DNA of 33,519 nt, taken from assembly GCA_002163245.1 (NCBI GenBank), contig MAAL01000088.1:1-33519 (forward strand). The letters are read 5' to 3'. Below are positions 3,698 to 32,067 of this stretch, piece by piece. Within the stretch, counting starts at the first letter, position 1. Each line of letters opens with the position of its first letter. A program made the translations under genes and the position numbers. The stretch is from Gammaproteobacteria bacterium 42_54_T18 (GTDB lineage: Bacteria > Pseudomonadota > Gammaproteobacteria > Pseudomonadales > Ketobacteraceae). Below the pieces are notes generated by a model that saw only the letters and a list, made by a program, of their open reading frames with translations, ran no database searches and was not told the DNA's origin.

Positions 3698-3882
3698 ATA
3701 TTGACCTCGGTATAGTTACAAAACAGTGGAAGCCATCGTCCGTAATGGAATTAAAACATTGTACATAAAACTTACAATATAAGCTGTCTACAAATACCGT
3801 TTAAAATGCCAATTAATACCATTATGAATGATCTTAAAGAGCCCACCCGGGGAACTATTGTGGCCGTTAAAGCCCTCTCAGA

Positions 3883-5685
3883 TTACTTCGATGAAAATCG
3901 AAACCAATCAAGATTATAGCCAGACTTAAACTTTAGATAAAGGTCATGAGTACCGGTGATGGTTTGGTCCAATTCGATGGAGTGTATTTTAAATTTACTC
4001 CAGCCACCCTGTCCAGATAACCCCGTAAAGGTGCCAACAGGTGCTCCTGAAAGCTCGTCTAAGTAGACCTCAATTCTGCCATAAGAGTTGGCTCTTGAAG
4101 TAGCGATCCGCGCATCGAAGGTATCAACCCCTGTACTACCAAAGTTGATGCTGGAATACTTTACCCAATCATCAGTTCTGATATAGCCAAGATTGGTCGT
4201 ATCACCTTTTCTTTCGATGCGGATACTGCCACGTTTTTGATCATAGCCCTCGGCTTCTAGCGTGACGATCGATATAGGGTTTTCTTCAACAGATCCAATA
4301 TCTGCTGAAGCTGATAATGCCCCTTTAGATAACTCACTGTCCCAGATATTCGAATCGCTCTGAGAAAAAGTTTCGAAATAGCCTTGTCCTTCGGTGTCAT
4401 CGTACAATGTGATTGAACCTTCCCAGTCACTGGGAAATTTAATCGAAGCGATAGACGGCATCGATTCAAGATTGTAGTAGGTTTTCCCGGTATCGATAAT
4501 TGGTATGATTGATTCTTTCCCCTTGAATTTTGATAGTGAATAGAGCGTCACGCCTCTGCTTTTAAAGTAGTTACGTCGACAGTGTCGATTGCAGTAATCG
4601 ACTGTTGACGACGTTGCAAACACTGGTTCGCGCTTATAGTTCTCCATTGTGTTGTTCATCGCTAGAACAAACGCGTCTTGCGTCGGTTCCATGTAGCCCC
4701 AGCGATAGCGCATTCGTTGGGGTATCTCAAAATGGATTGCTTGTAACCGATTAATATGAGCGGTCGAAAAACCGTTAACCTGATCTGTATTTACCGAAAA
4801 AAGGAAACCATTAAGATCAGCTAACCCCAAGGCTTTACCATTAGGTGCACGCAATTCTGTTTTCAATCGAGGGTCAACACCGGGAATAACATCCAGTGCT
4901 TTTGCCATTTCGGCAGCAAATAAACTACTGAAAGATTTTAGCTGGAATTGGCGATTAGCTGACATCTCTCCGCCACCCTCCCCTGGCTGAATCATGCCCG
5001 ACGTCCAACCAGCATTACCTCTCTGTTCTTTACGCCGCATACCATGTAATACCATCACTGCAACTTGAGGGTACTTTTCCAATATATGTTGATTAACATC
5101 GAGAAATACATGGTGCATCCTTGAGCTTCCGCCTCGAGCTGCGTTCATATAGTTTGGGTGTTTCTTATGGTCATTGGCAGCAAGCACCATAACCTTCGCT
5201 TTGGTCTCTCGCATTAACTTAACGGCTACCGGCCTCCCTTCTTCAAAGTGAGGAGCCTGAAAAAATAAGGGATCGACTGGGTTGTCGAACGTTGGTCTAT
5301 CGCCAGGAATGGCAATTTCTCCCACCCGCCACAGGATGGATACAGGAGGCCGCTCAGATTTGAGAGGCGCATGGGGATAGATGTACAGTAAATCCCCAGC
5401 TTCCTGACATATTGACATATTAAGAGATGCAGCCGCATAGGTCATTTCGTTTGGTAGATTTTCAGGAATAATCGTTAACGGTACTAATGCATCAATAATC
5501 GTTTCTAAACCGGCGGATACTCCTCTATTCGCTTGTTGAAACTGGCCTTCGTTGTAATTCTTGTAAGACATCTTTACAATTTGTTCAAGCCCGCCCCCGT
5601 CGTTACAAAGGTCAACAGCAGAATATACGGACATAGAAGGGAGTAATAAGGGGGCAAGTAAGCAAAATATTTTTCTTATTTTCAT
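3883..5685 (-). CDS. secreted protein: unknown N-domain, beta/gamma-crystallin-like module and C-terminal CBM6
   Basis: The 600-residue protein has a Sec signal peptide at about 1-22 (VYSA before VD). Residues 24-370 form a domain I cannot name. It contains paired His motifs (NDHKKH, SRMHHVF, LHGMRR) and an IHFEIPQR segment that loosely recalls zinc-dependent N-formylglutamate amidohydrolase-like folds, which is a weak resemblance. Residues 377-450 look like two Greek-key motifs of a beta/gamma-crystallin domain: VTLYSLSKFKGK, then SIASIKFPSDWEGSITLYDD with GQGYFETF. Residues 474-598 are a CBM6: LEAEGYD start, GYIRTDDWVKY, and a C-terminal LDWFRF. Crystallin modules often bind calcium and CBM6 binds beta-glucans or xylan, so it probably acts on, or anchors to, extracellular polysaccharide. 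Four Cys lie near 364-369 and at 27 and 93. Confidence 0.78.
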   Translation of the reverse strand: MKIRKIFCLLAPLLLPSMSVYSAVDLCNDGGGLEQIVKMSYKNYNEGQFQQANRGVSAGLETIIDALVPLTIIPENLPNEMTYAAASLNMSICQEAGDLLYIYPHAPLKSERPPVSILWRVGEIAIPGDRPTFDNPVDPLFFQAPHFEEGRPVAVKLMRETKAKVMVLAANDHKKHPNYMNAARGGSSRMHHVFLDVNQHILEKYPQVAVMVLHGMRRKEQRGNAGWTSGMIQPGEGGGEMSANRQFQLKSFSSLFAAEMAKALDVIPGVDPRLKTELRAPNGKALGLADLNGFLFSVNTDQVNGFSTAHINRLQAIHFEIPQRMRYRWGYMEPTQDAFVLAMNNTMENYKREPVFATSSTVDYCNRHCRRNYFKSRGVTLYSLSKFKGKESIIPIIDTGKTYYNLESMPSIASIKFPSDWEGSITLYDDTEGQGYFETFSQSDSNIWDSELSKGALSASADIGSVEENPISIVTLEAEGYDQKRGSIRIERKGDTTNLGYIRTDDWVKYSSINFGSTGVDTFDARIATSRANSYGRIEVYLDELSGAPVGTFTGLSGQGGWSKFKIHSIELDQTITGTHDLYLKFKSGYNLDWFRFSSK

Positions 5686-6092: not shown

Positions 6093-6713
6093 ATGAGCTT
6101 TTACGACAATAATGTTCTACCTCACGTAATCAATCTGGCCTGTGGCAGTGCCCCTATTCTACGTCAACGTCAAAAAATCGTACCTCAAGCAGAAGGACGG
6201 ATATTAGAAATTGGTATGGGCTCTGGAATCAATATCCCCTACTACAGCACTAGTAAGGTAGAAAAAGTCTGGGGGCTTGAACCCTCAATCGGTATGCGTA
6301 AAAAAGCTAAGAAACGAGTAGATGCGGCACCTTTTGACCTTGAATGGTTAGATCTACCAGGAGAGGAAATTCCGCTTGACGATAATAGTGTCGATACCAT
6401 TGTACTGACCTACACATTATGTACCATTCCTGATTGGCGAGCTGCCGTTAATCAGATGAGCCGTGTACTGAAGCCAGGTGGAAAGCTTTTATTCAGTGAG
6501 CATGGTAAAGCTCCCGATGCTGCGGTTCAGGCTTGGCAAGACCGAGTAAATCCCTTGTGGATGAAGCTGGCGGGTGGATGTCATCTAAACAGAGATATCC
6601 CGGCATTGTTAAAAGCAGGTGGTTTCAAAATAAAAGAATTAGACACGTTATACGTACCTAAGACACCAAAAATTGCTGCATTTACATTTTGGGGTTACGC
6701 AGAGATTAGGTAA
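6093..6713 (+). CDS. class I SAM-dependent methyltransferase (METTL7/phospholipid-methyltransferase-like)
   Basis: The 206-residue protein has a Rossmann methyltransferase core. Motif I is ILEIGMGSGINIPYY (residues about 33-47), the acidic strand is WGLEPS, and the DNSVDTIVLTYTLCTIPD region precedes VLKPGGKLLFSEHG. The Methyltransf_11 pattern with LCTIPD, and the length, resemble the METTL7-like branch found in bacteria and animals. Those proteins methylate small thiols or lipids, and the substrate here is not evident. AAAGGA lies just before the ATG and overlaps the end of the glutaredoxin remnant. The last eight bases overlap the end of the convergent HupE/UreJ gene. Confidence 0.9.
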   Translation: MSFYDNNVLPHVINLACGSAPILRQRQKIVPQAEGRILEIGMGSGINIPYYSTSKVEKVWGLEPSIGMRKKAKKRVDAAPFDLEWLDLPGEEIPLDDNSVDTIVLTYTLCTIPDWRAAVNQMSRVLKPGGKLLFSEHGKAPDAAVQAWQDRVNPLWMKLAGGCHLNRDIPALLKAGGFKIKELDTLYVPKTPKIAAFTFWGYAEIR

Positions 6714-7764
6714 ATAGCGATAAGCTACGCTCTATCGTCCAATGCGTTGCAATTACACCCAGTCCATAAGCAATTGGGGTGGTCCAACGTTTTCTCGGGA
6801 TGAGTGTAACACCACGATACCTAAGTAAACATTGAGCGGTATACACCAAGGTAAGTATCACAGATATAAAAAGCAACTGACCAAGTTCAACACCTATATT
6901 AAAATATAACAACGCAAGGGGTATATCTATTTTAGGTACCCCCAGGGCACTCAGCGAACTAGCAAAGCCCAACCCATGCAATAGTCCAAATCCCACAGCC
7001 GCAACCCAAGGGTAACGCCCTGTAAAACTATCCTTCCCCTGGTTAATTCTAATGACCTCGTAGGCAAGAACAACAATGGATAATGCAATGCTCGTTTCAA
7101 CTGGGGCTACAGACAACTCTAATATATTTAGAAATGAAAGAGCTAATGTAATGCTGTGAGCAACGGTGAACGCTGTAATCGTCTTAACAAGCAATATTGG
7201 AGACCCTACAATGAGAATGATGCCAATAATAAAAAGTAGATGATCATAACCCGAGAGAATATGGTTAATCCCTAAATGAAGGAATCGTTTCACTTTTGAT
7301 TTTTTACTAGCGTTAACCGCAGAGAGTCCGCTCAAGGCAACGGTAATAGTCCCCTCTTCACTTAGAAATAACGATTGAGAAGTTTCGCGACCTAGCCAAA
7401 TAGCGGAGATAAACACACCTTCACGCTTCCAACTTAAGTCAAACTTATCGTCAGATGTTAGCGCCCCATCACAACTGAATGTGAACGTTAACTTTCCGTT
7501 AGAAAGCGACCCTCTGAAAGGTTTGTGCAAATCACACCGCTTAGGTATTAGTGGCGCTGTAATTTGATGAGCCATAGATTCAGACGTATTTACATTTAGA
7601 ACATAGGTCTGATGATCCAGCTCCTTTTTACTAATAGTTTTGGTCTGCTCGAGGGTGGCTTTTGTTATCCCTAAATCATGAGCAAAAGCTGGAGTAAAAA
7701 AAACAATAGTAATAAGAAAGAACAACATCGAGGTGAACTCTGGAAACCTGAGCATAATACTCAC
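6706..7764 (-). CDS. HupE/UreJ-family membrane protein
   Basis: The 352-residue protein has a signal peptide ending near AFA28-HD, then a periplasmic region to about residue 155. A C-terminal HupE/UreJ-type membrane domain of six or seven helices follows. Conserved polar signatures sit in the helices: HLGINHILSGYDH (164-175), TVAHSITL (around 203), GLLHGLGFA (around 263) and FNIGVELGQ (around 293). Their His and acidic residues suggest metal transport or metal binding. HupE and UreJ are linked to nickel uptake, but this longer variant occurs without hydrogenase or urease, and none is in the window. The ATG overlaps the parvulin stop codon by four bases (ATGA), so the two genes are translationally coupled. 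Confidence 0.88.
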   Translation of the reverse strand: MSIMLRFPEFTSMLFFLITIVFFTPAFAHDLGITKATLEQTKTISKKELDHQTYVLNVNTSESMAHQITAPLIPKRCDLHKPFRGSLSNGKLTFTFSCDGALTSDDKFDLSWKREGVFISAIWLGRETSQSLFLSEEGTITVALSGLSAVNASKKSKVKRFLHLGINHILSGYDHLLFIIGIILIVGSPILLVKTITAFTVAHSITLALSFLNILELSVAPVETSIALSIVVLAYEVIRINQGKDSFTGRYPWVAAVGFGLLHGLGFASSLSALGVPKIDIPLALLYFNIGVELGQLLFISVILTLVYTAQCLLRYRGVTLIPRKRWTTPIAYGLGVIATHWTIERSLSLFT

Positions 7765-8564
7765 TGCACTCCTTCGATACGAATACTGTATTGGTTTCTC
7801 AGCGCCTCTATTTTTTTAGTGTTAGCCTTCTTTTGTTCTTCTTTTATCCACCCATTCTTCACATATTTTTTAACGTTAAGGTATGGTGAAATAGAACCTT
7901 TATGAACGGATATGACGCGTATAAAATGCTGACCATAAGGGCTGATAAGCGGACCATACCATTCCCCCTTATTGGCGCCAGAAATTGCCTCGGAAACATT
8001 TTTACCAAAACGAGCCATTATTTCTTCAAGCGACTCTCCCTCGACCCGATTTGGAAACCGTGCGTGTTTATTTCCCAATTTAACTGAGGGAAAGTCTTCG
8101 TTGAGTTTTTCTAATACATTGTTGAATGGAGGGTTCTCTAAATCGAAAAATACCTGCTCGATGTTAATGGTGTCCTGCTGTGCAAATTTACCCAAATTAG
8201 CTGAATAATACCGGCGTAACTCCTCTTCTGTGGGTTCTCGCTGATCTGTTGAAAGTATATATCGCATTTTTCTTAACAAACGTGTACGAATAATTTGATC
8301 TTTATCAAGCCCTAACCGATAAGCCTCTTTAAGTAGGATCTCTTCATCGACAAATTCATCAATAGCTAATACTTGCTCTTCTACCGATAACTTCGAGCCT
8401 CTAAGATTGTGCTGCTGTTCAAGAACAGCAGCACGAGTAGCTTCTGAAACGATGAGTTCAGGCTTATCATTACTATTTAATTGGTGGTCGGCTAAAAAAA
8501 GCAAACCTCCCAAAACCAGAAAAACAAATAGTGGTTCGGAAATAAGAGAGCTGAGAAGTTTCAT
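7761..8564 (-). CDS. membrane-anchored parvulin-type peptidyl-prolyl isomerase
   Basis: The 267-residue protein has one N-terminal membrane anchor (about 9-25, PLFVFLVLGGLLFLA) and then a SurA/PpiD-like layout. A helical chaperone region at about 40-130 includes VDEEILLKEAYRLGLDKD and REPTEEELRRYY. A PpiC/Rotamase_2 domain covers about 130-235, with the typical ending GEWYGPLISPYGQHFIRV. It should face the periplasm and assist folding of exported proteins. HupE/UreJ proteins of this long type are, to my knowledge, often encoded beside such an isomerase, so it may be a dedicated foldase for the next gene product. It starts 12 bases after the GH16 fusion gene and overlaps HupE/UreJ by four bases. 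Confidence 0.9.
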   Translation of the reverse strand: MKLLSSLISEPLFVFLVLGGLLFLADHQLNSNDKPELIVSEATRAAVLEQQHNLRGSKLSVEEQVLAIDEFVDEEILLKEAYRLGLDKDQIIRTRLLRKMRYILSTDQREPTEEELRRYYSANLGKFAQQDTINIEQVFFDLENPPFNNVLEKLNEDFPSVKLGNKHARFPNRVEGESLEEIMARFGKNVSEAISGANKGEWYGPLISPYGQHFIRVISVHKGSISPYLNVKKYVKNGWIKEEQKKANTKKIEALRNQYSIRIEGVQ

Positions 8565-8576
8565 TGCCGGATCACA

Positions 8577-11393
8577 TTACGGGTTAGCTTGTATTAGACT
8601 AAAAGAACCCTGAGAACTTTCATCCTCTTCAAACTGTTGAGTCACCGGTGAATAGGTATAATAATCTACTCTATTATCTAGTGGTTTAAACACATAATAC
8701 CGTAGCAACATTACCTCTTGAGCATCACACTGATAGTCCACGATAAAATTATTAGATACGCCACCTCGAGGCCCGTTGGTTGTATAATGCGCCTCTCGTT
8801 GGCAAACATGGCCCGCATTTGACATTACGATGTTATCGTACTGATAGAGCAAGTTGTTTTTAATATGGTCAGTGGCCCATGTATCATGTGTGACAAGGAT
8901 CACCTTTCTATCAGGATTAGCGGCTAATATACCTTTTGCCCAATTTATCCCCGCCGGTCGGTATTCGGAATATTGATCATAGGTTTCAACTTGCAAAAAC
9001 ATATATTTTTCATTACCAATGGTCATCAAGCCATAGTTATTTTCAATCCCCCCAAAATCACCACCCCACCACGACTCATTTGAAAAGCTCCATACAGGGA
9101 AGTATTGATTCATAGTCCACGGATCATCATGGTTTCCTGTAATTGGCATAAAAGGTACTTGTCCATAGAGTTTATCCCAGGCAGATGTTGAATTGTCCCA
9201 TTCCCATCCGTTATTCCAACTTTCAACTATGTCCCCTAATCCCTGAACAAACTTAATATTTAGATCACCTTTGGTCCGTACGATCCAATCAAATGCCGCC
9301 CTCATATGCGATATCGGTGCATTACTTCTATTTTGGGAGTAGTGTTGTGTATCCGGTATCACAACGAGCGTCCACTCCCCTCTTTCTTTGTTGACGGTAT
9401 TAGGCGCTCCGGAATAATCATCGGCGTCGCCAATATTAATGTAATTCAAATTCACTTCGGCATCGTTAAAATACACTTCAAGTACATGCTCCCCTTCAGG
9501 CAAGCTAACCGTCGTCGTCGTATCTCTCCAGTTTTGCCAACCACCCGAATTAGGAACTATCAACGCTCCACCCAATGAATTTCCATTCAGCTTAAGCTGA
9601 ATGGAAAGCCCACTTTTTGTGGTTGCAACCCTTGCCTTTATTCGGTATTCGCCAGCATCTGAGACAGCAATTTTATAACGAAGATATTCCCCCGCGGCTG
9701 TCCATCCTACACTATACCCACCACCTACGTCCGTTGTGCTCTCAATATCAACATCCTCTTGTCGATATTCACCACCAGTATTTCCAGTCGTTAGATCTCT
9801 ATATGAATCATAGTTTTCAGCTTCGATTTTTGCAGGAACTAAAACTCCATCTAGTTCTCCACCATTATTATCCACACCGCCGTTGTCATCTAGCTTATAT
9901 GCTCGAACATAATCTACAGCCATGGTTTGAGGGAACAAGGTATTATCATTTGGACTTCCCGGCCAATTACCCCCGACAGCCACATTAAGAATAATATGGA
10001 AACGTTGGTTAAATGGTGCTGGATATTCACCTACATCAGACCACCAGTTATTTTGAGTTTGATATAGAACCCCATCAACATACCAACGAATCTCAGTAGG
10101 TTCCCACTCTATACTGTAAACGTGAAAGTTATCGGTAACACTTGTATCAGGTGTATAACTTTTACCGCTACTGGTGTTGTTTGGCCATTCCCCACCGTAA
10201 TGGAGCGTACCGTGGATATTGTTCTCGCCATTACTCTCTAAATTAACGGCTTCTAAAATATCAATTTCTCCACTAGCAGCCCAGCCACCATAAACCCAAT
10301 CCGTTGGAAGCATCCAGATGGCAGGCCATAACCCCTGACCAGCTGGAAGCTTTGCTTTAACTTCTATTTTTCCGTACAGAAAATCCCCTTTGTTGGGTGT
10401 GCTAAGGCGTGCAGACGTATAGTCTCTGGTTTTACCACCACTAGAATAACGTTCGCGCAACGCTTTTATGATGAGCTTGCCATCCTCAATATAGGAGTTC
10501 TCAGAGCGCTCGGTATAATATTGTAATTCATTGTTACCTCCACCATTTGCATCAACTGCATGCTCCCACTTTGTTGCGTCGATACTGCTTCCGTTAAATT
10601 CATCCTGCCAAACTAACGTCCAGCCTGATTGAGAGTTATCTACTGCAGTGATATCAATATAATTTACATTTAGTTCTTCGCTATCAAAATAGACATCTAG
10701 TTCATGCTCTCCAGACGGTAAGGTTAACGTAGCAGAAACGTCTACCCAGTTTTGCCAACTGCCGGTATTGGGGACATTAATACTGCTTCCTATGAAGCTG
10801 CCGTTAAGTCTAAAACGGAAAGAACGACTATTCTTAATAGTAGAAACCCGTGACCGCAGGAGATATTCGCCAGATTCTGGAACCGATATCGTATAGCGCA
10901 AATATTCCCCCGGAGAAACCCAACCGACACTATACCCACCTCCAATATCCGTGGTGGCCTCAATATCGACATCCTCCTGACGATATGTTCCACCTGTATT
11001 TCCTGGGGTGGTATCATAAAAAGAGACGTAATCTTCTGCTTCAATTTTGGCAGGCAACAAAATGGCGCTGCTATTGTCGACAGGAGGTAATATCACATAG
11101 TTCGCCGAGAATATCGCGCCAGGTTGTGTATCTATATAAGGCAGCGCTTTAATTGTGGCATCTGCTGATACCTCTACTGGGCCAAAATAAAGTTGACTTG
11201 AATCTGTTGGGCTGGATCCATCAGTTGTGTAGTAAATAGCCGTCGCCGTACTATGAGAGATCACCACCTGCTGAGTCTTATGATAGGTTCCTGCAGCAGG
11301 AGAAAAACTTCCGGATCCGCCGCAACCTACAAGAATAAAAAGGGAAAAGACAGCAATGATAACGGAGCGGTATTTGAGGGGGTTAAGGGGCAT
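8577..11393 (-). CDS. lipoprotein: CHB-HEX-like, CBM6, GH16 beta-glucanase, CBM6, metallophosphoesterase
   Basis: The protein is 938 residues from ATG 11393, which has GGAGG five bases upstream; an in-frame ATG at 11435 lacks this. The lipobox is LVGC with Cys24. Modules in order: chitobiase C-terminal-like fold at about 29-100 (TYHKTQQVVI, IYYTTDGSSPT); CBM6 at 113-249; GH16 at 257-500 with GEIDILE giving the catalytic Glu376/Asp378/Glu381; a second CBM6 at 517-655; and a calcineurin-like phosphoesterase at 672 to about 925. The phosphoesterase motifs are PDTQ (Asp681), LGDIVE (Asp721), GNHD (754-756), THD (His836) and GHVC (His862, with Cys where the second His usually sits). GH16 enzymes of this type cleave beta-1,3-(1,4)-glucans such as laminarin. 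A GH16-phosphoesterase fusion is unusual and the phosphoesterase substrate is unknown. It leads an operon with the parvulin and HupE/UreJ genes. Confidence 0.93.
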   Translation of the reverse strand: MPLNPLKYRSVIIAVFSLFILVGCGGSGSFSPAAGTYHKTQQVVISHSTATAIYYTTDGSSPTDSSQLYFGPVEVSADATIKALPYIDTQPGAIFSANYVILPPVDNSSAILLPAKIEAEDYVSFYDTTPGNTGGTYRQEDVDIEATTDIGGGYSVGWVSPGEYLRYTISVPESGEYLLRSRVSTIKNSRSFRFRLNGSFIGSSINVPNTGSWQNWVDVSATLTLPSGEHELDVYFDSEELNVNYIDITAVDNSQSGWTLVWQDEFNGSSIDATKWEHAVDANGGGNNELQYYTERSENSYIEDGKLIIKALRERYSSGGKTRDYTSARLSTPNKGDFLYGKIEVKAKLPAGQGLWPAIWMLPTDWVYGGWAASGEIDILEAVNLESNGENNIHGTLHYGGEWPNNTSSGKSYTPDTSVTDNFHVYSIEWEPTEIRWYVDGVLYQTQNNWWSDVGEYPAPFNQRFHIILNVAVGGNWPGSPNDNTLFPQTMAVDYVRAYKLDDNGGVDNNGGELDGVLVPAKIEAENYDSYRDLTTGNTGGEYRQEDVDIESTTDVGGGYSVGWTAAGEYLRYKIAVSDAGEYRIKARVATTKSGLSIQLKLNGNSLGGALIVPNSGGWQNWRDTTTTVSLPEGEHVLEVYFNDAEVNLNYINIGDADDYSGAPNTVNKERGEWTLVVIPDTQHYSQNRSNAPISHMRAAFDWIVRTKGDLNIKFVQGLGDIVESWNNGWEWDNSTSAWDKLYGQVPFMPITGNHDDPWTMNQYFPVWSFSNESWWGGDFGGIENNYGLMTIGNEKYMFLQVETYDQYSEYRPAGINWAKGILAANPDRKVILVTHDTWATDHIKNNLLYQYDNIVMSNAGHVCQREAHYTTNGPRGGVSNNFIVDYQCDAQEVMLLRYYVFKPLDNRVDYYTYSPVTQQFEEDESSQGSFSLIQANP
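9429..9845 (-). repeat. second CBM6 copy (internal duplication)
   Basis: This segment encodes residues 517-655 of the GH16 fusion protein. It shares long matches with the first copy, including AKIEAE, GNTGG-x-YRQEDVDIE and GGGYSVGW. The two modules flank the GH16 domain and probably arose by duplication inside the gene. Confidence 0.85.
10647..11057 (-). repeat. first CBM6 copy (internal duplication)
   Basis: This segment encodes residues 113-249 of the GH16 fusion protein. CBM6 landmarks are the AKIEAEDY start, the PGEYLRYTISV strand and the closing NVNYIDI. It is close enough to the second copy that the duplication looks fairly recent. Confidence 0.85.
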
Positions 11394-11465
11394 GTAGCCT
11401 CCAAAGGCAATGTTATTATTATTTTGATAGCACACCTATTATGAATATCTTTATTCTTGAGTGCA

Positions 11466-11546: not shown

Positions 11547-12560
11547 CTAGGCTTGTGAACAAATATTTTTACTAAATTGCTGTCGGTATTGATTGGGGGA
11601 GCAGTTGTACCATCGTTTAAAAGCTCTCGTGAAGTTCCCCGAATCGGAAAAACCAAGGTTATGTGCAATTTGAGTAATACTTAGAGGTGTTGTCTCAATA
11701 TAATTCTGAGCTTCACCCCGCCGAATTTCGTCTAACAAATGCTTAAAACTCGTGTTCTCATTTTGCAATGAGCGCTGCAAAGTGCGAACACTTATTTCTA
11801 AACCCGCTGCAACCTGATCAATAGATACACAGTTACGTTCTAGATTTTTTCTAACGTAAACTTCCACGGTTAAAAGGAACGGAGTGGGGTCAAGTTCTCG
11901 CAGACGTTCTATGCATTTATTTTCGTTATACGTCAAAATCTCTGGATGTGCATGCATTGATGGCAAAGCTAAACAATCACTACACAGGTGTATGGCAAAC
12001 TGTTCTGAATCCCAATTAATGGGCACTTTAAAATAACGTTCATACTGCATTGTGTTTTTTGGTTTTGGCTTGGCTAAATCCATTTTCCGAATGGCATTTT
12101 TTTGGGGCTGCACAAATCGAAACGTTCTAATCGCAGTCGACATTATTGCGTCAGAAACCATCGATGGTAGTACTAATTCGTCGTGAAGTTTAAATCCGAA
12201 GATAGCATTCTCGACACCCTCATTGAAATAGCAATTATACGCATTAGTAATGGTTGCGTTGTACTTAACCATAAGACGCAATCCATCTCTTAAATTCTCA
12301 GCAGCAAGCATTGCTAACGAAAGCGAATAAAAACTATTGGGGACTATCCCTCTTCTGGACTCTAGGCCAGCTGATGATCCATATAAGCTTTCAGCCGCCT
12401 CAAAGAGCGTAAAAACATCTTTTTTACTGCAGTACTGCTCAGAAAAGATAGTTGGGGAAATATCAGCAGCCTTTAAAATATTCGACTGATCCCAACCCCT
12501 TAGCTCAAACCCTTTTACGCAAGACGCTAGCCAGCTAGTTAGCACATAAACATCGCCCAT
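11547..12560 (-). CDS. AraC-family transcriptional regulator (OruR/ArgR-like)
   Basis: The 337-residue protein has an N-terminal Arabinose_bd-type sensor domain (about 15-205; MLAAENLRDGLRLMVKY is typical of the OruR-like group). Its C-terminal double helix-turn-helix spans about 235-330. The first HTH is near SIDQVAAGLEISVRTLQRSL, and the second is marked by IAHNLGFSDSGNFTRAFKRW and the closing PNQYR. A GAGGG site precedes the ATG. It lies directly upstream of the GH16 operon in the same direction with a 153-base gap, so it is the best candidate for that operon's activator. The ligand is unknown. The family call is firm; the target is inference. Confidence 0.92.
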   Translation of the reverse strand: MGDVYVLTSWLASCVKGFELRGWDQSNILKAADISPTIFSEQYCSKKDVFTLFEAAESLYGSSAGLESRRGIVPNSFYSLSLAMLAAENLRDGLRLMVKYNATITNAYNCYFNEGVENAIFGFKLHDELVLPSMVSDAIMSTAIRTFRFVQPQKNAIRKMDLAKPKPKNTMQYERYFKVPINWDSEQFAIHLCSDCLALPSMHAHPEILTYNENKCIERLRELDPTPFLLTVEVYVRKNLERNCVSIDQVAAGLEISVRTLQRSLQNENTSFKHLLDEIRRGEAQNYIETTPLSITQIAHNLGFSDSGNFTRAFKRWYNCSPNQYRQQFSKNICSQA

Positions 12561-19810: not shown

Positions 19811-19934
19811 TGATCTCCTTTGTGGATCTCCGCAATTGTAATTGAGGTTTCCTCTGCTGGCTATACGTAGCGAAAGGTTGATAAATATGTACGATCGTGC
19901 TAATTATAGGGAAAAGCCTTCTCGGATAATAATA

Positions 19935-22709
19935 ATGATAAAACGTACTGGCCCCTTAGCCTATTCTATTTTGGCATTAGCACTCGCAGCCTGTGGTGGT
20001 GAATCCTCAAGCGACTCAACCTCCAAAGCATCAGCTTCAGTATTAAGTAGTCAAGACTCCACTCTACAAGCAGACGACAACACGGCAAGCCCTCAAGTTG
20101 TTGATAGTGACCTAAGTTCACTTCTGCAAAGCTGTGAGCAGGGAAATAGAGCTGTTGCAGAGCAAATATCAAATCCTAACTTCGAATTATCAGGCTCAAA
20201 TGCTCTTGGCAGTGCGGGAGACTATTTGCTTTCTAACGATAAAGCAGCGTTTGTAATCACCGGCCCTGGTAGGCAAAAAACTTATTTCCATTACCATGGT
20301 ATTTTAGTCGATGCAGCTCCTCTTAAAGATTGCGTCCAAGCGGGTGATGAAAATTTTTATGAACTTGCGTTGATGGCGGGTCGCCTCAATTTCGCAAACC
20401 AGTCTGGTTCGATAATTCGTGCGTTTAACGGTGATAACATCGAAATCATTAACGACGGACAGGATGGTGAGGCAGCTATAGTACGTGTTCATGGGACGGA
20501 CGATATATATTGGTTGCTTGAATATGAATTAATACAAAGAGCTTTTGAAACCGGTATACCAAAAGGAGTCTCAGATCCGTTTGGTTTAAATATTACCGTT
20601 GATTACATCTTAGAGCCTGGCTCACCGACATTAAAAATTGTTTATCAATTAGAGAACCAGTTAAACCGCTTTAATAGCATCAGCGCAGCTTTTTCCCTTT
20701 TATCATCAGGTAACGGACCAAGTATTAATTCTTTTTCTTCGTTTGACATAAACGTAGAAGGCTTAGAACTTCAATACGGAATCCCTTGGATAACGGCTGT
20801 CTCTGAACAAAGCACCTATATTTATGGCGTTAACAGCAATCAGTTGGTTACTACTCACATCCAAGGTGTTGATGCTACCATCGACGCATCTCAATTAAGC
20901 AACACCTGGCTAGGGCAATTACTCGCTCCAGCTGGAAATAACAAAGACACACTAACCCGAGAATTTTTTGTCAGCGTAACACCGTCAGGCGAAGTTGATG
21001 CAATTAACGAGTATCTAGACTCCACACCAAAAACCGTTGATACACTGCAAACGCCGGTATCGGTATTGGTTATCGACAAAGTTACTGGAGCCCCTATTGA
21101 AGGGGCGGTCGTAGAGTTTCAAACAAAAACACAGGCATTCTTAGAAGGCTGGCCATGGAACACCTTTGCTAGAACCTATACAGATGTACTGGGAGTTGCG
21201 ATAAAAAATGTTCCGTTGATTTCATACCTCAATGAGCAAGGGTACCGAGCGGTTGCAACAGCGCCGGGAAGAGAAGATTCTCAGCCAATTGAATTAGTTC
21301 CTTCTGAGGATAATCAATTGGTATTTGAGATGTCAGGTCAGGGTAACGTTGAGTACAACATTACTGACGATACCGGAAGAGAAATTCCTAGCCAGATATC
21401 ATTCTGGCAAGATGATAACCTTATACAGAGGTTCTATTTAAAATCAGGTTCCGGCACATTAACCATTCCTCCTGGTGAATATGAGATCGGTATTTCGCGA
21501 GGGTTTGAATATTCGATTGTTGAAATGCCGATAGTTATAGGGGGCACTGATCCATCGACATTAACGGCAACTTTGACAAGAATGGTTGATACGGCAGGTT
21601 ATATGAGCTTTGACGCTCACGTGCATTCATCACCAAGTCCTGATAGCGAGGTATCACCGAATGATCGTATCACGTCGGCCGCGGCCACTGGGTTAGAAGT
21701 TGTGGTTTCAACGGACCATGAAATTATAACCGACCTACAACCTGCAATTACCGCCACGAATTTAGATACCTGGGTTGCTACCGTTATTGGCCAAGAGGTA
21801 ACGGCAACACTTCCCAACCACACTATTGCTTACCCTATAGTACGAGATACAACAGACCCAAGAGGTGGGCCTATTCCCTGGTATGGCTTAGATATCGCAG
21901 AAATCTTTGCAGCAGAGAAAGCTAGAGGGGCTCAGGTACGAACAATAGCGCACCCGAGGAGCTCATACTTAAACCATATTGAGTGGGATCGTATTGCAGG
22001 TAAGCCTGGAGTCGATAACCTTACCGATTTGGCATTTTCAGAAGATGCTCAGTTGTGGTCGTGGGATTTTGAAGCGTTAGAATATCAAAATGGCCCTCAA
22101 AATGTGTTTGAGACCGGCGTTTTTGAAGATTGGATGAGCTTCCTAAATCATGGCCACCGAATTACTGCAACTGGGGCTAGCGACGTGCACGGCGCGGACA
22201 CACCTGGAATGCCCAGAACCTACTTCCGCTCTACCTCTGATAATCCAGAAACCTTCATTCAAGCGGATATGATTAACGCAGTTCAAAATAACCAAGCAAT
22301 TGTTAGTACCGGCGCATTCGCAACAATTACTGCAAATGGTACAGCTCAAGTTGGCGATATCATCACTAATACCGACGGCATGATATCACTGCATGTGTCA
22401 GTACAGGCAATACCGTCGATTGATATTGACCATATTAAGATTTATATGAATTGTGATGAGGTAGTTACAGCGTTCGCTTCCAACCCTGTCGATAGTGCTA
22501 TTAAGCTAAATGAAACATATCAGATAGCAGTACCTATGGACAAGGATGCTCATATTGTTGTACTGGGATTTGGCAAGGAAGCAATGCCGAGAGAGCTACC
22601 TCAATATAATCCAATTGGAGCCCCTAGAGTTACAACAAACCCCATCTTTATTGATGCCAATGGCAATGGGTTGTTTGATGCTCCAGGTGGCAAGCAGTGT
22701 GATATCTAG
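19935..22709 (+). CDS. lipoprotein with CehA/McbA-like PHP metallohydrolase domain
   Basis: The protein is 924 residues from the ATG at 19935, which gives a short lipoprotein signal with the lipobox LAAC and Cys20. In-frame TTG 19842 and ATG 19887 would leave long polar leaders. After a Ser-rich linker, residues about 60-370 form a beta-rich domain and about 374-458 a carboxypeptidase-regulatory-like fold (VIDKVTGAPIEGAVVEF). Residues 555-760 are a PHP-type metallohydrolase of the CehA/McbA group: DAHVHSS (His562/His564), STDHE (Asp594/His595), GQEV (Glu621), AHPRSS (His673) and SDVHG (Asp750/His752). CehA and McbA hydrolyse carbamate or aryl esters, but the natural substrate of such large lipoproteins is unknown. 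A DANGNGLFD calcium-loop-like motif ends the protein. Confidence 0.88.
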   Translation: MIKRTGPLAYSILALALAACGGESSSDSTSKASASVLSSQDSTLQADDNTASPQVVDSDLSSLLQSCEQGNRAVAEQISNPNFELSGSNALGSAGDYLLSNDKAAFVITGPGRQKTYFHYHGILVDAAPLKDCVQAGDENFYELALMAGRLNFANQSGSIIRAFNGDNIEIINDGQDGEAAIVRVHGTDDIYWLLEYELIQRAFETGIPKGVSDPFGLNITVDYILEPGSPTLKIVYQLENQLNRFNSISAAFSLLSSGNGPSINSFSSFDINVEGLELQYGIPWITAVSEQSTYIYGVNSNQLVTTHIQGVDATIDASQLSNTWLGQLLAPAGNNKDTLTREFFVSVTPSGEVDAINEYLDSTPKTVDTLQTPVSVLVIDKVTGAPIEGAVVEFQTKTQAFLEGWPWNTFARTYTDVLGVAIKNVPLISYLNEQGYRAVATAPGREDSQPIELVPSEDNQLVFEMSGQGNVEYNITDDTGREIPSQISFWQDDNLIQRFYLKSGSGTLTIPPGEYEIGISRGFEYSIVEMPIVIGGTDPSTLTATLTRMVDTAGYMSFDAHVHSSPSPDSEVSPNDRITSAAATGLEVVVSTDHEIITDLQPAITATNLDTWVATVIGQEVTATLPNHTIAYPIVRDTTDPRGGPIPWYGLDIAEIFAAEKARGAQVRTIAHPRSSYLNHIEWDRIAGKPGVDNLTDLAFSEDAQLWSWDFEALEYQNGPQNVFETGVFEDWMSFLNHGHRITATGASDVHGADTPGMPRTYFRSTSDNPETFIQADMINAVQNNQAIVSTGAFATITANGTAQVGDIITNTDGMISLHVSVQAIPSIDIDHIKIYMNCDEVVTAFASNPVDSAIKLNETYQIAVPMDKDAHIVVLGFGKEAMPRELPQYNPIGAPRVTTNPIFIDANGNGLFDAPGGKQCDI

Positions 22710-29781: not shown

Positions 29782-32067
29782 CTAGTGGGTATTGGCTGTC
29801 ACACCAATTCCTGATGAGTCCGACACGTCTATGCCCTGTGGGTCTATAACCAACGTTTCACCACCGTAAGTCACATCGGTCATTAACGGTAATGGTATTT
29901 GAGCGATACCTAGATTAATTTGCTCAATAACAATGGTCGATAGAATGTATTGGACTAATAGGTTATTTGCATTAGAAGCCTCAAACGATAATGTTGGCGT
30001 CAAGAATGCGAGTTTAAGGTGACCTTCCTCTATATCTATACTGATAGGTATTTCCGCGCTAAAAACGGCGTCTTTAACTTGGTCCCATTCTCCACTAGCA
30101 GTTTTTTCTTGAGTAACAATATGGAAGTTATTGATTATAAGGTAAGGCACTTTGTTAACACTACCTCTAAATGCCAACTCGAAAGGAGAAGATGGATAGT
30201 TAACGACTCGGTGAGTGGCCGCTCCCTCTGAAGCTAGTATGATGGAATTATTACCAATGATTAATGGCAGTTTAACAATCGAAATCCCAGATTCATAAAG
30301 AGCTAACATTCCTTGGTTGATGTAGTTCGTAGCAGCTACCAGCGCAATTTCGGTGTCGCCATTTGAAACCTCACGAATCAGACCCGGTGTAAATCGAAAG
30401 CCGAGAGCTGTGGGTGCAACTTCAGGAGCAGGCCCCAAATTTTCTGGAATTTCGATTTGATCTGGCATGAAATGATCACTTACCCAAATAACGTCAGGGG
30501 AACCAAAATCTGTTCCTGTTTCAACATCACCAGGTGACACATCGGCTTCTTCAGCCCCTACTCTACCATTTAGATAAAGCACTAAGCTGTTAGCATCGTT
30601 GGTAACATCAATGTCTGACACTTCAAATAAGGTACTCAATTGAGCACCATTGGTAATTCCCACAGCAACATTCACGCGAATTTCATTCACAATACTATCT
30701 ACGATGACATCAGCAAGTGGTGGTAATAGTTGACCGAAAATAAGATCGAAAATCAGGTTCTTCGCACCTTCAATGCCACCGGTTATGGTATCAACCATGG
30801 TTTGGGCCAAACCTAATCCAAATATATTAAAGACTCCCGGTAACGTAATATCGATACTAAAATCCGAATCCAGATCCCCTAAACCAATAGCATTTATTGA
30901 AACAATCGTTGCATCTACGGCGCCGTCCGTCGCACTAATAGCCACATCAGCTGCTGCACGTAATCTGGATACGTCGGTATAAACCGTAAAGTTGCCATCC
31001 ATCGGATCTAACAATGAAGATAGCCCCAAAATATTTAAAATAGAAGACGCTATATCGGTAAGACCAAGAACATAAGATTCTATCTTAATACCAAGGTGTG
31101 CATCTATGATCTCCCCATCAAAAGATACACCTTCCCAATCCCCGAAAGCCCAATGATTGCCTGCTTCTATATCTAATTTGTTAATATTTACTTCTTCCAC
31201 ATCAACGTCAACCAAAGAGGCTTCAAGTCCAAGAAGCTTGATGTTCACAGGTCCTGCGCTTACTTCTGGTGTGCATATTTGTGGTGTACAAATACCGAAA
31301 GTACAGATTTTTGGTGTACAAATTTTGGGTACCAAAACAACCTTGGGTAAATAAATACCTACTTGCTCACTGAACAAGGTGGAATTCCCTGACTGTTGAA
31401 GAAGGCTGTCTATGTCCATGTCAGCAATTGCTGCTTGGGCAATGGGTAACATATCGTGAATTGCTGTTTCATCTACGCGAACTTTGATGGCATCTTCAAC
31501 AATACTATTTCTATCGGAATAAAAGGTTTCAGATTGACGCCCGTCGGAATCGAACGCGACTAGGTGGTACATATCACTAGTCACCACTTCACCTGCAAAA
31601 CCATCGTTATCGTCAATCGATACAATCACACCATTTATGCTTATTTCAGCAACACCAGACGGGTCTGATAACTGCCCCTGGATAGTTGTCATTCCATTTA
31701 TTTCAACTTCAGAGATTGAGATTTTCGGGCCTTCGGTATCCATAAAGAAAGTGTGCTTGGGCCCAAACTTCCCAGGCTCAACAGATAACACGTTACTCCC
31801 CTGGTTTAGCAATCCATCAACATCAGAGCCTTGCGCTACAAAATACCCACTGTCATCTTGAAAGTTTTCTGTGATATCAACACCATTTAACATGACGACA
31901 TTGGGGGCTGAATTTACGTAAGAGATCCTCAACGTACTTGGGACTTCATCTAAATATGTCTGGTTTTGTTCTGGAAGCTCAATAACAAACTCGTCAGTAA
32001 CACAACCTGCTAACATAGTAATAACTAAAATTGCAGTAAAGACTAAATTTATAGGTTTTTTTATCAT
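29782..32067 (-). CDS. large lipoprotein with Ig-like modules and a Cys ladder
   Basis: The 761-residue protein has a lipobox (LAGC, Cys22). Residues about 25-110 and 112-185 look like two Ig-like or Big-type beta sandwiches (SAPNVVMLNGVDITENF and DPSGVAEISINGVIVSIDD). At 248-267 four Cys lie exactly five residues apart in a repeated (x)ICT(P) unit. From about 275 to 760 the protein is beta-rich with amphipathic helices (GLGLAQTMVDTITGG, LIFGQLLPPLADVIVDSIV). This faintly recalls lipid-binding tubular (TULIP-like) folds but is not a firm match. It should be attached to the outer membrane. It ends in an intrinsic terminator and is divergent from an AraC gene. I do not recognise a named family. 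Confidence 0.72.
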   Translation of the reverse strand: MIKKPINLVFTAILVITMLAGCVTDEFVIELPEQNQTYLDEVPSTLRISYVNSAPNVVMLNGVDITENFQDDSGYFVAQGSDVDGLLNQGSNVLSVEPGKFGPKHTFFMDTEGPKISISEVEINGMTTIQGQLSDPSGVAEISINGVIVSIDDNDGFAGEVVTSDMYHLVAFDSDGRQSETFYSDRNSIVEDAIKVRVDETAIHDMLPIAQAAIADMDIDSLLQQSGNSTLFSEQVGIYLPKVVLVPKICTPKICTFGICTPQICTPEVSAGPVNIKLLGLEASLVDVDVEEVNINKLDIEAGNHWAFGDWEGVSFDGEIIDAHLGIKIESYVLGLTDIASSILNILGLSSLLDPMDGNFTVYTDVSRLRAAADVAISATDGAVDATIVSINAIGLGDLDSDFSIDITLPGVFNIFGLGLAQTMVDTITGGIEGAKNLIFDLIFGQLLPPLADVIVDSIVNEIRVNVAVGITNGAQLSTLFEVSDIDVTNDANSLVLYLNGRVGAEEADVSPGDVETGTDFGSPDVIWVSDHFMPDQIEIPENLGPAPEVAPTALGFRFTPGLIREVSNGDTEIALVAATNYINQGMLALYESGISIVKLPLIIGNNSIILASEGAATHRVVNYPSSPFELAFRGSVNKVPYLIINNFHIVTQEKTASGEWDQVKDAVFSAEIPISIDIEEGHLKLAFLTPTLSFEASNANNLLVQYILSTIVIEQINLGIAQIPLPLMTDVTYGGETLVIDPQGIDVSDSSGIGVTANTH
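31267..31326 (-). repeat. tandem five-residue Cys repeat (four units)
   Basis: Residues 248-267 of the lipoprotein read as KICTP, KICTF, GICTP and QICTP. The Cys residues (250, 255, 260 and 265) are evenly spaced. Underlying DNA repeats are imperfect 15-mers (GTGTACAAAT-like), consistent with an old tandem expansion. The spacing could suit a beta-helix rung, a metal site or interchain disulfides. Confidence 0.75.

Follow-up and report, generated by a model that had tools for sequence, protein, structure and literature searches.

A GH16 glucanase and a metallophosphoesterase-fold domain joined in a lipoprotein of a Ketobacteraceae bacterium

What would bring a glucanase and a phosphoesterase together in one exported chain? 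The question is raised by a gene on contig MAAL01000088.1 (assembly GCA_002163245.1) of Gammaproteobacteria bacterium 42_54_T18, a member of the Ketobacteraceae, of which positions 1 to 33,519 of the forward strand were analyzed (hereafter the window, 33,519 nucleotides). This gene (8577..11393, minus strand) encodes a lipoprotein in which a glycoside hydrolase family 16 (GH16) domain, two carbohydrate-binding modules of family 6 (CBM6), and a C-terminal calcineurin-like metallophosphoesterase (MPP) domain share a single frame. The architecture, fold, motifs, and gene order of the locus are established, and the GH16-MPP fusion is a real, unusual module combination of known domain families.

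The open frame (8577..11435, minus strand) is unbroken over 952 codons from a GTG at 11435. The ATG at 11393, with GGAGG four bases upstream, is preferred as start; the resulting protein has 938 residues and a signal peptide ending in LVG/C, and Pfam residue positions below follow the numbering of the 952-residue frame. Signal peptide and lipobox (11322..11393, minus strand, as are all features of this gene), with the lipid-anchored cysteine at residue 24 of 938, were judged by eye, as were their counterparts LTAC and LGGC in two further genomes, G003 and G001. The lipobox is followed by a CHB_HEX_C_1-like stalk domain (11142..11300; Pfam residues 46-98, E 1.2e-16), a first CBM6 (10641..11060), GH16 (9894..10625), a second CBM6 (9423..9842), and the PDTQ-type MPP domain (8580..9380). 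Frame, Pfam, fold, and the presence of the fusion in the genomes of two species thus confirm the layout proposed in an earlier note on this DNA, namely a single-frame lipoprotein with a complete GH16, two CBM6, and a C-terminal phosphoesterase, to which the stalk, two altered metal-ligand positions, and the downstream genes are now added.

The second of these species is represented by G003, a genome of the same genus, which encodes an 805-residue lipoprotein of stalk, GH16, CBM6, and MPP, followed as in the window by genes for a peptidyl-prolyl isomerase (PPIase) and a HupE permease. Identity between the two loci amounts to 86% for MPP, 79% for GH16, 43% for the adjacent CBM6, 42% for the PPIase, and 46% for HupE, and by this sequence measure the MPP domain is among the most constrained parts of the locus. 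A third copy, in G001, reads stalk-CBM6-GH16-CBM6; because its frame is still open at the contig end after the second CBM6, and the rest of that genome yielded no MPP, this copy is neutral on the fusion. Searches of G002 and G004, which are also genomes of the genus, gave no match to the fusion protein. Among the collected loci GH16 and MPP share one frame in 12 cases, all copies of the window or G003 gene, with 31 further frames carrying MPP alone and 9 further frames GH16 alone (two of the nine being the incomplete G001 gene). Of the 321 matching plasmid records, none covers 80% of the protein at a single location. The earlier note knew of no characterized GH16-metallophosphoesterase pairing, and none turned up in the literature searched; among genomes, the architecture was sought in Pseudomonadota only.

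Recognition of the MPP domain from sequence is weak, the Metallophos Pfam match (residues 693-862) reaching 21.6 bits where the cut-off is 21.5; the G003 domain scores 21.4, and that of G993, a genome from another family of the same order, 25.0. No relative was found among PDB sequences at E <= 1. An AlphaFold2 model built from five sequences reached a mean pLDDT of 84.8, and its Foldseek search gave 71 PDB matches at E <= 0.001; the 50 best that were listed are for the most part phosphatases and nucleases with the MPP fold. Human purple acid phosphatase ranked first (1war; E 5e-10, TM 0.64 by query, 12% identity) and the next matches include Lmo2642 and GpdQ; phosphatases and phosphodiesterases head the solved structures. 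According to this model the window domain has the MPP fold.

Inspection of the metal site revealed the motifs D, GD, GNHD, H, and GH, with DxQ for DxH in block I and GHxC for GHxH in block V. Five of the seven classical ligand positions are kept, which makes the earlier description of near-complete metal motifs a fair one, with Q for H in the first block and C for H in the fifth. Assignment as a classical seven-ligand MPP was considered and not made; because the superfamily is defined by fold, the missing ligands bear on mechanism. Purple acid phosphatases carry a GDxxY motif with a tyrosine ligand. The window domain reads GDIVE where this motif is expected, and identity as a purple acid phosphatase was dropped in favor of likeness in fold.

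The GH16 domain matches its Pfam family over residues 327-495 (E 1.4e-22; 80.4 bits against a family cut-off of 22), and residues 271-514 found 59 distinct PDB sequences at E <= 0.001. Laminarinases lead these matches, with 3azx the best (E 3e-58). Its GEIDILE motif (10251..10271, minus strand; residues 389-395, with E390, D392, and E395) aligns with GEIDIME of 3azx and has the E-x-D-x-(x)-E pattern of GH16 catalysis. The domain is apparently intact and is predicted to be a GH16_3-like endo-beta-1,3-glucanase. Both CBM6 copies pass the Pfam cut-off (whole-protein E 1e-48; 165 bits against 28.9) and are 59% identical to each other.

Which of these modules form the core of the protein is suggested by G993, which stood out at E 9e-137 in an order-wide search with matches in 20 of 390 genomes. 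It encodes a 590-residue protein of signal peptide, CBM6, CBM6, and MPP without GH16, whose MPP is 67% identical to that of the window and whose gene is directly followed by PPIase and HupE/UreJ_2 genes, as in the window and G003. A GH5-CBM2 cellulase gene (L132 11939-14086) in the same orientation precedes the CBM6-MPP gene by 254 bases. Since G993 has the unit without GH16, the recurring element is a glycan-targeted MPP with PPIase and HupE, and GH16 is variable; these sequences suggest that MPP with sugar-binding modules is the conserved core and GH16 a later addition. The simplest reading is that the CBM6-MPP-PPIase-HupE unit predates the split of the two families and that GH16 was added in the window's genus.

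Standalone MPPs of the same kind were found on three IMG/VR viral contigs (L039, L040, and L041, about 3800-4800), with 54, 51, and 44% identity to the window domain and lipoprotein-like signal sequences as judged by eye. On one of them (L041/L065) the MPP gene sits inside a head gene cluster, where genes for terminase and portal precede it and those for head protease and major head follow; the proteins scanned on the other two include Erf-like or primase, helicase, and exonuclease gene products. The conserved company of MPP is CBM6 (in bacteria), PPIase, and HupE, not GH16.

The PPIC-type PPIase gene of the window (7761..8564, minus strand; Pfam Rotamase_2) starts 12 nt after the fusion gene and adjoins the MPP gene in G003 and G993 too. 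It is followed by a HupE/UreJ_2 permease gene (6706..7764, minus strand) with the expected membrane domain (PF13795, E 1.6e-42; 145 bits against a cut-off of 24.5). By eye, the permease would be cleaved at PAFA/HDLG, making histidine the likely first mature residue; the predicted column holds His in 15 of 21 HupE rows and Asp in six, with His in all three MPP loci. The model of this protein is poor (pLDDT 48.7), its N-terminal part being beta-rich and weakly modeled, and no PDB sequence matched at E <= 1.

To place the pair in context, 18 PPIase loci (L091-L108) were read from 38 match rows, excluding the window and its G003 orthologue; these are mostly the best-scoring rows, and some match rows are pieces of one gene. 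PPIase and HupE are adjacent in 18/18. A DUF3604 gene adjoins them in 15 (eight called by Pfam, the other seven by a profile built from those eight), L094, L101, and L103 being the loci without it. No MPP gene occurs in these 18, and DUF3604 is absent from the stretches read of the three MPP loci, so MPP occupies the usual place of DUF3604. In the PPIase tree the three MPP loci fall together (93/91). The window's own genome also has a DUF3604-type PPIase-HupE locus (L108). At L092 (992-2945) the DUF3604 gene lies in two overlapping frames and looks broken or misread.

The favored reading, held with a confidence just short of even, is a two-enzyme outer-membrane or surface lipoprotein with a CBM6-held phosphoesterase on beta-glucan as its core, GH16 helping, and HupE handling metal. 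We infer both activities, the substrate, the cooperation of the domains, and the parts of PPIase and HupE as follows. The CBM6 modules would hold the purple-acid-phosphatase-like MPP at a beta-glucan-rich surface, where it would hydrolyze phosphoesters (mono- or diesters, in the matrix or trapped by it) to phosphate or dephosphorylated sugars. GH16, in the same chain in the window's genus, may open the beta-glucan matrix for MPP, a part that the separate neighboring GH5 gene might play in G993. The PPIase is presumably a folding aid for the exported protein, and the permease, with its probable N-terminal histidine, may handle metal that the enzyme needs or frees.

Support for two enzymes comes from the single frame, the fusion and downstream genes in G003, the G993 unit with GH5-CBM2, the intact GH16 catalytic motif, the highly constrained MPP with its phosphatase-like model matches, and the five ligands kept of seven. 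A phosphorylated glucan is a possible substrate. Of the two ideas offered in the earlier note, the better fit is a phosphatase directed to glucan particles, because the MPP of G993 is carried by CBM6 alone and that of the three viral contigs stands alone; a single phosphorylated or nucleotide-bearing glycan as the target of both domains did not gain such support. The proposed metal role is supported by the available part of one study (PMC12537917), in which HupE/UreJ-2 permeases whose N-terminal metal-binding domain starts with His are termed anglerases and bind copper/nickel, and metallophosphatases are among the most frequent neighbors of the Ang-2 kind of Actinomycetota.

Several observations weigh against this proposal. 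The Pfam scores of the MPP domain sit at the cut-off in the window and G003, both of its departures from the classical motif fall on M1 ligand positions, and we know of no activity for any member of this MPP subfamily. A full laminarin pathway is not evident, because a count of two families in the window's genome gave one GH16 and one GH3, the latter a 348-residue frame whose length suggests NagZ; as far as GH16 and GH3 tell, a large glucan-degrading outfit is unlikely. Loss of GH16 in G993 is a possible alternative order of events, and in the HupE tree the MPP loci do not come out as a single group (57/33). For the Ang-1 kind, that of Pseudomonadota, the frequent neighbors named in the available part of PMC12537917 are DUF4198, indigoidine synthase, and PfkB, not metallophosphatases.

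Of the alternatives, one that is unlikely but survives best holds that two unrelated jobs were shuffled onto one stalk, GH16 acting as a common laminarinase and MPP as a phosphatase for general phosphate scavenging. Modules of this locus do move: just upstream of the G003 fusion gene (L022 10733-16262) stand two lipoprotein-like proteins in which stalk and CBM6 carry a di-haem oxidoreductase (DHOR) domain (Pfam on one), the CBM6 pairs arose by separate duplications in the window/G001 line and in that of G993, and MPP occurs by itself on the viral contigs. A position-specific test for the MPP-side CBM6 as one lineage was negative (three changes, 0% of bootstrap trees). Yet two species have retained the fusion through changes in other modules, and a beta-glucan-active hydrolase, the GH5, also adjoins the MPP gene in G993, albeit in a single case.

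A little less probable again is that the MPP domain, with DxQ, GHxC, and a cysteine pair forming a disulfide or metal thiolate, holds one metal or another metal, or is not catalytic, its role being that of a module for binding or sensing. Of 24 aligned MPP domains, 12 keep the second His of GHxH, five have Cys there, and seven have other residues. In the window this position is Cys878 (domain Cys203; 8802..8804, minus strand), and Cys903 (domain Cys228; 8727..8729, minus strand) of DYQC is present wherever Cys203 is: the two co-occur in 5/24 domains, are both missing from the remaining 19, and are invariant in a six-row subfamily alignment of the window, G003, the added G993, and the three viral-contig MPPs. 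Against degeneracy, the block I and II Asp, the block IV His, and the first block V His (D20, D60, H175, and H201) are present in 24/24 and N93 and H94 of GNH in 21/24, and the domain is strongly conserved in both G003 and G993. Moreover, DxQ replaces DxH in 23 of the 24 and is thus the normal state of the family.

A bolder extension of the favored two-enzyme reading, itself improbable, would make the MPPs a new exported phosphoesterase subfamily, with the coupled cysteine pair at the metal site, that strips metal-holding phosphates from beta-glucan; HupE would take up the freed metal, the phage lipoprotein version would edit the host surface, and the glucanase would be built in within one genus. 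If so, phosphate, sugar, and metal would be freed together from the beta-glucan matrix.

Slightly more doubtful than this extension is a remodeling enzyme acting on the envelope or exopolysaccharide of the cell itself, for instance on phosphate-decorated glucans. The lone GH16 in a genome with no sign of a dedicated GH3 beta-glucosidase, the lipoprotein anchoring, and the lipoprotein-like viral relatives, for which a host-surface role is natural, speak for it, but CBM6 and a laminarinase-type GH16 suit beta-1,3-glucan, which is not known here as a self polymer (glucan-synthesis genes were not searched). An assembly error joining two neighboring genes, the check named beforehand, has nothing in its favor but the rarity of the pairing and, barring one error common to both assemblies, is ruled out by the same fusion in the independently assembled G003 (GH16 79%, MPP 86%), with the MPP of G993 likewise in one frame with CBM6.

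The spread of MPP relatives was surveyed in overlapping genome sets of Pseudomonadota and, beyond these, in plasmids, phages, and viral contigs. Searches found them in 9/293, 3/369, 16/299 (broad profile), and, in the class, 3/369 genomes; the subfamily occurs in 2/15 genomes of the window's family. Plasmids gave 24 records, all below 60% identity, and phages three. A genome-contig scan with two peptide patterns, which may miss relatives, returned only the G003 record and one distant MPP. Among metallophosphoesterases elsewhere, a Riemerella effector with phosphatase activity is listed in the available part of PMC10202324.

Upstream of the fusion gene lies an AraC-type regulator (11547..12560, minus strand; Pfam). 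By eye, a similar gene stands upstream in G001 and, in G003, before the two DHOR genes; none was seen in the G993 stretch read. On a Pseudoalteromonas plasmid (L109 8920-13299), a protein of about 1459 residues, assigned by its annotation to the di-heme oxidoreductase family, has similarity to the CBM6 parts. Elsewhere in the window, a 600-residue apparently exported protein (3883-5685, minus strand) ends in a CBM6, its first 476 residues without a Pfam match and the protein without an NCBIfam family at E <= 0.01. A 955-residue lipoprotein-like protein (19842-22709, plus strand) has a domain of the CehA/McbA metallohydrolase (PHP) type, which scores 116 bits where 80 is the cut-off, and another of 761 residues (29782-32067, minus strand) has no Pfam or NCBIfam match.

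The fusion offers a test case of a glycoside hydrolase and a phosphoesterase within one exported chain, and relatives with GH16, without it, and standalone on viral contigs make the role of each module separable. To our knowledge DUF3604, the usual partner of the PPIase-HupE pair, has no known function, and an uncharacterized MPP subfamily tied to the same pair offers a route into both.

Among known systems, purple acid phosphatases (1war), and after them Lmo2642 and GpdQ, share with the window MPP its fold and five of the seven classical ligand positions; it differs from 1war in its 12% identity, DxQ, GHxC, and GDIVE. The standalone IMG/VR proteins, 44-54% identical and with the same cysteine pair, lack CBM6 and GH16 and lie among phage genes. 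Closer is the G993 protein, with its 67% identical MPP, CBM6 modules, and PPIase and HupE directly downstream, but it has no GH16 and no stalk, an ordinary signal peptide instead of a lipobox (by eye), and GH5-CBM2 as a separate upstream gene. DUF3604 loci share the PPIase-HupE pair (18/18) and differ in their partner (15/18) and in having no MPP. With the anglerases, as the available part of PMC12537917 describes them, the window permease shares PF13795 after an exported N-terminal domain probably starting with His; any metal binding by it is a prediction, and that domain, which in an anglerase would be an Ig-like beta-sandwich, is beta-rich but weakly modeled. Finally, GH16 laminarinases of the subfamily 3 type, such as Thermotoga maritima 3azx, share the full domain and the ExDxxE motif (E 3e-58); the window GH16 shares its chain with an MPP, whereas the names of the solved entries listed refer to no activity other than that of glucanases or related glycosidases.

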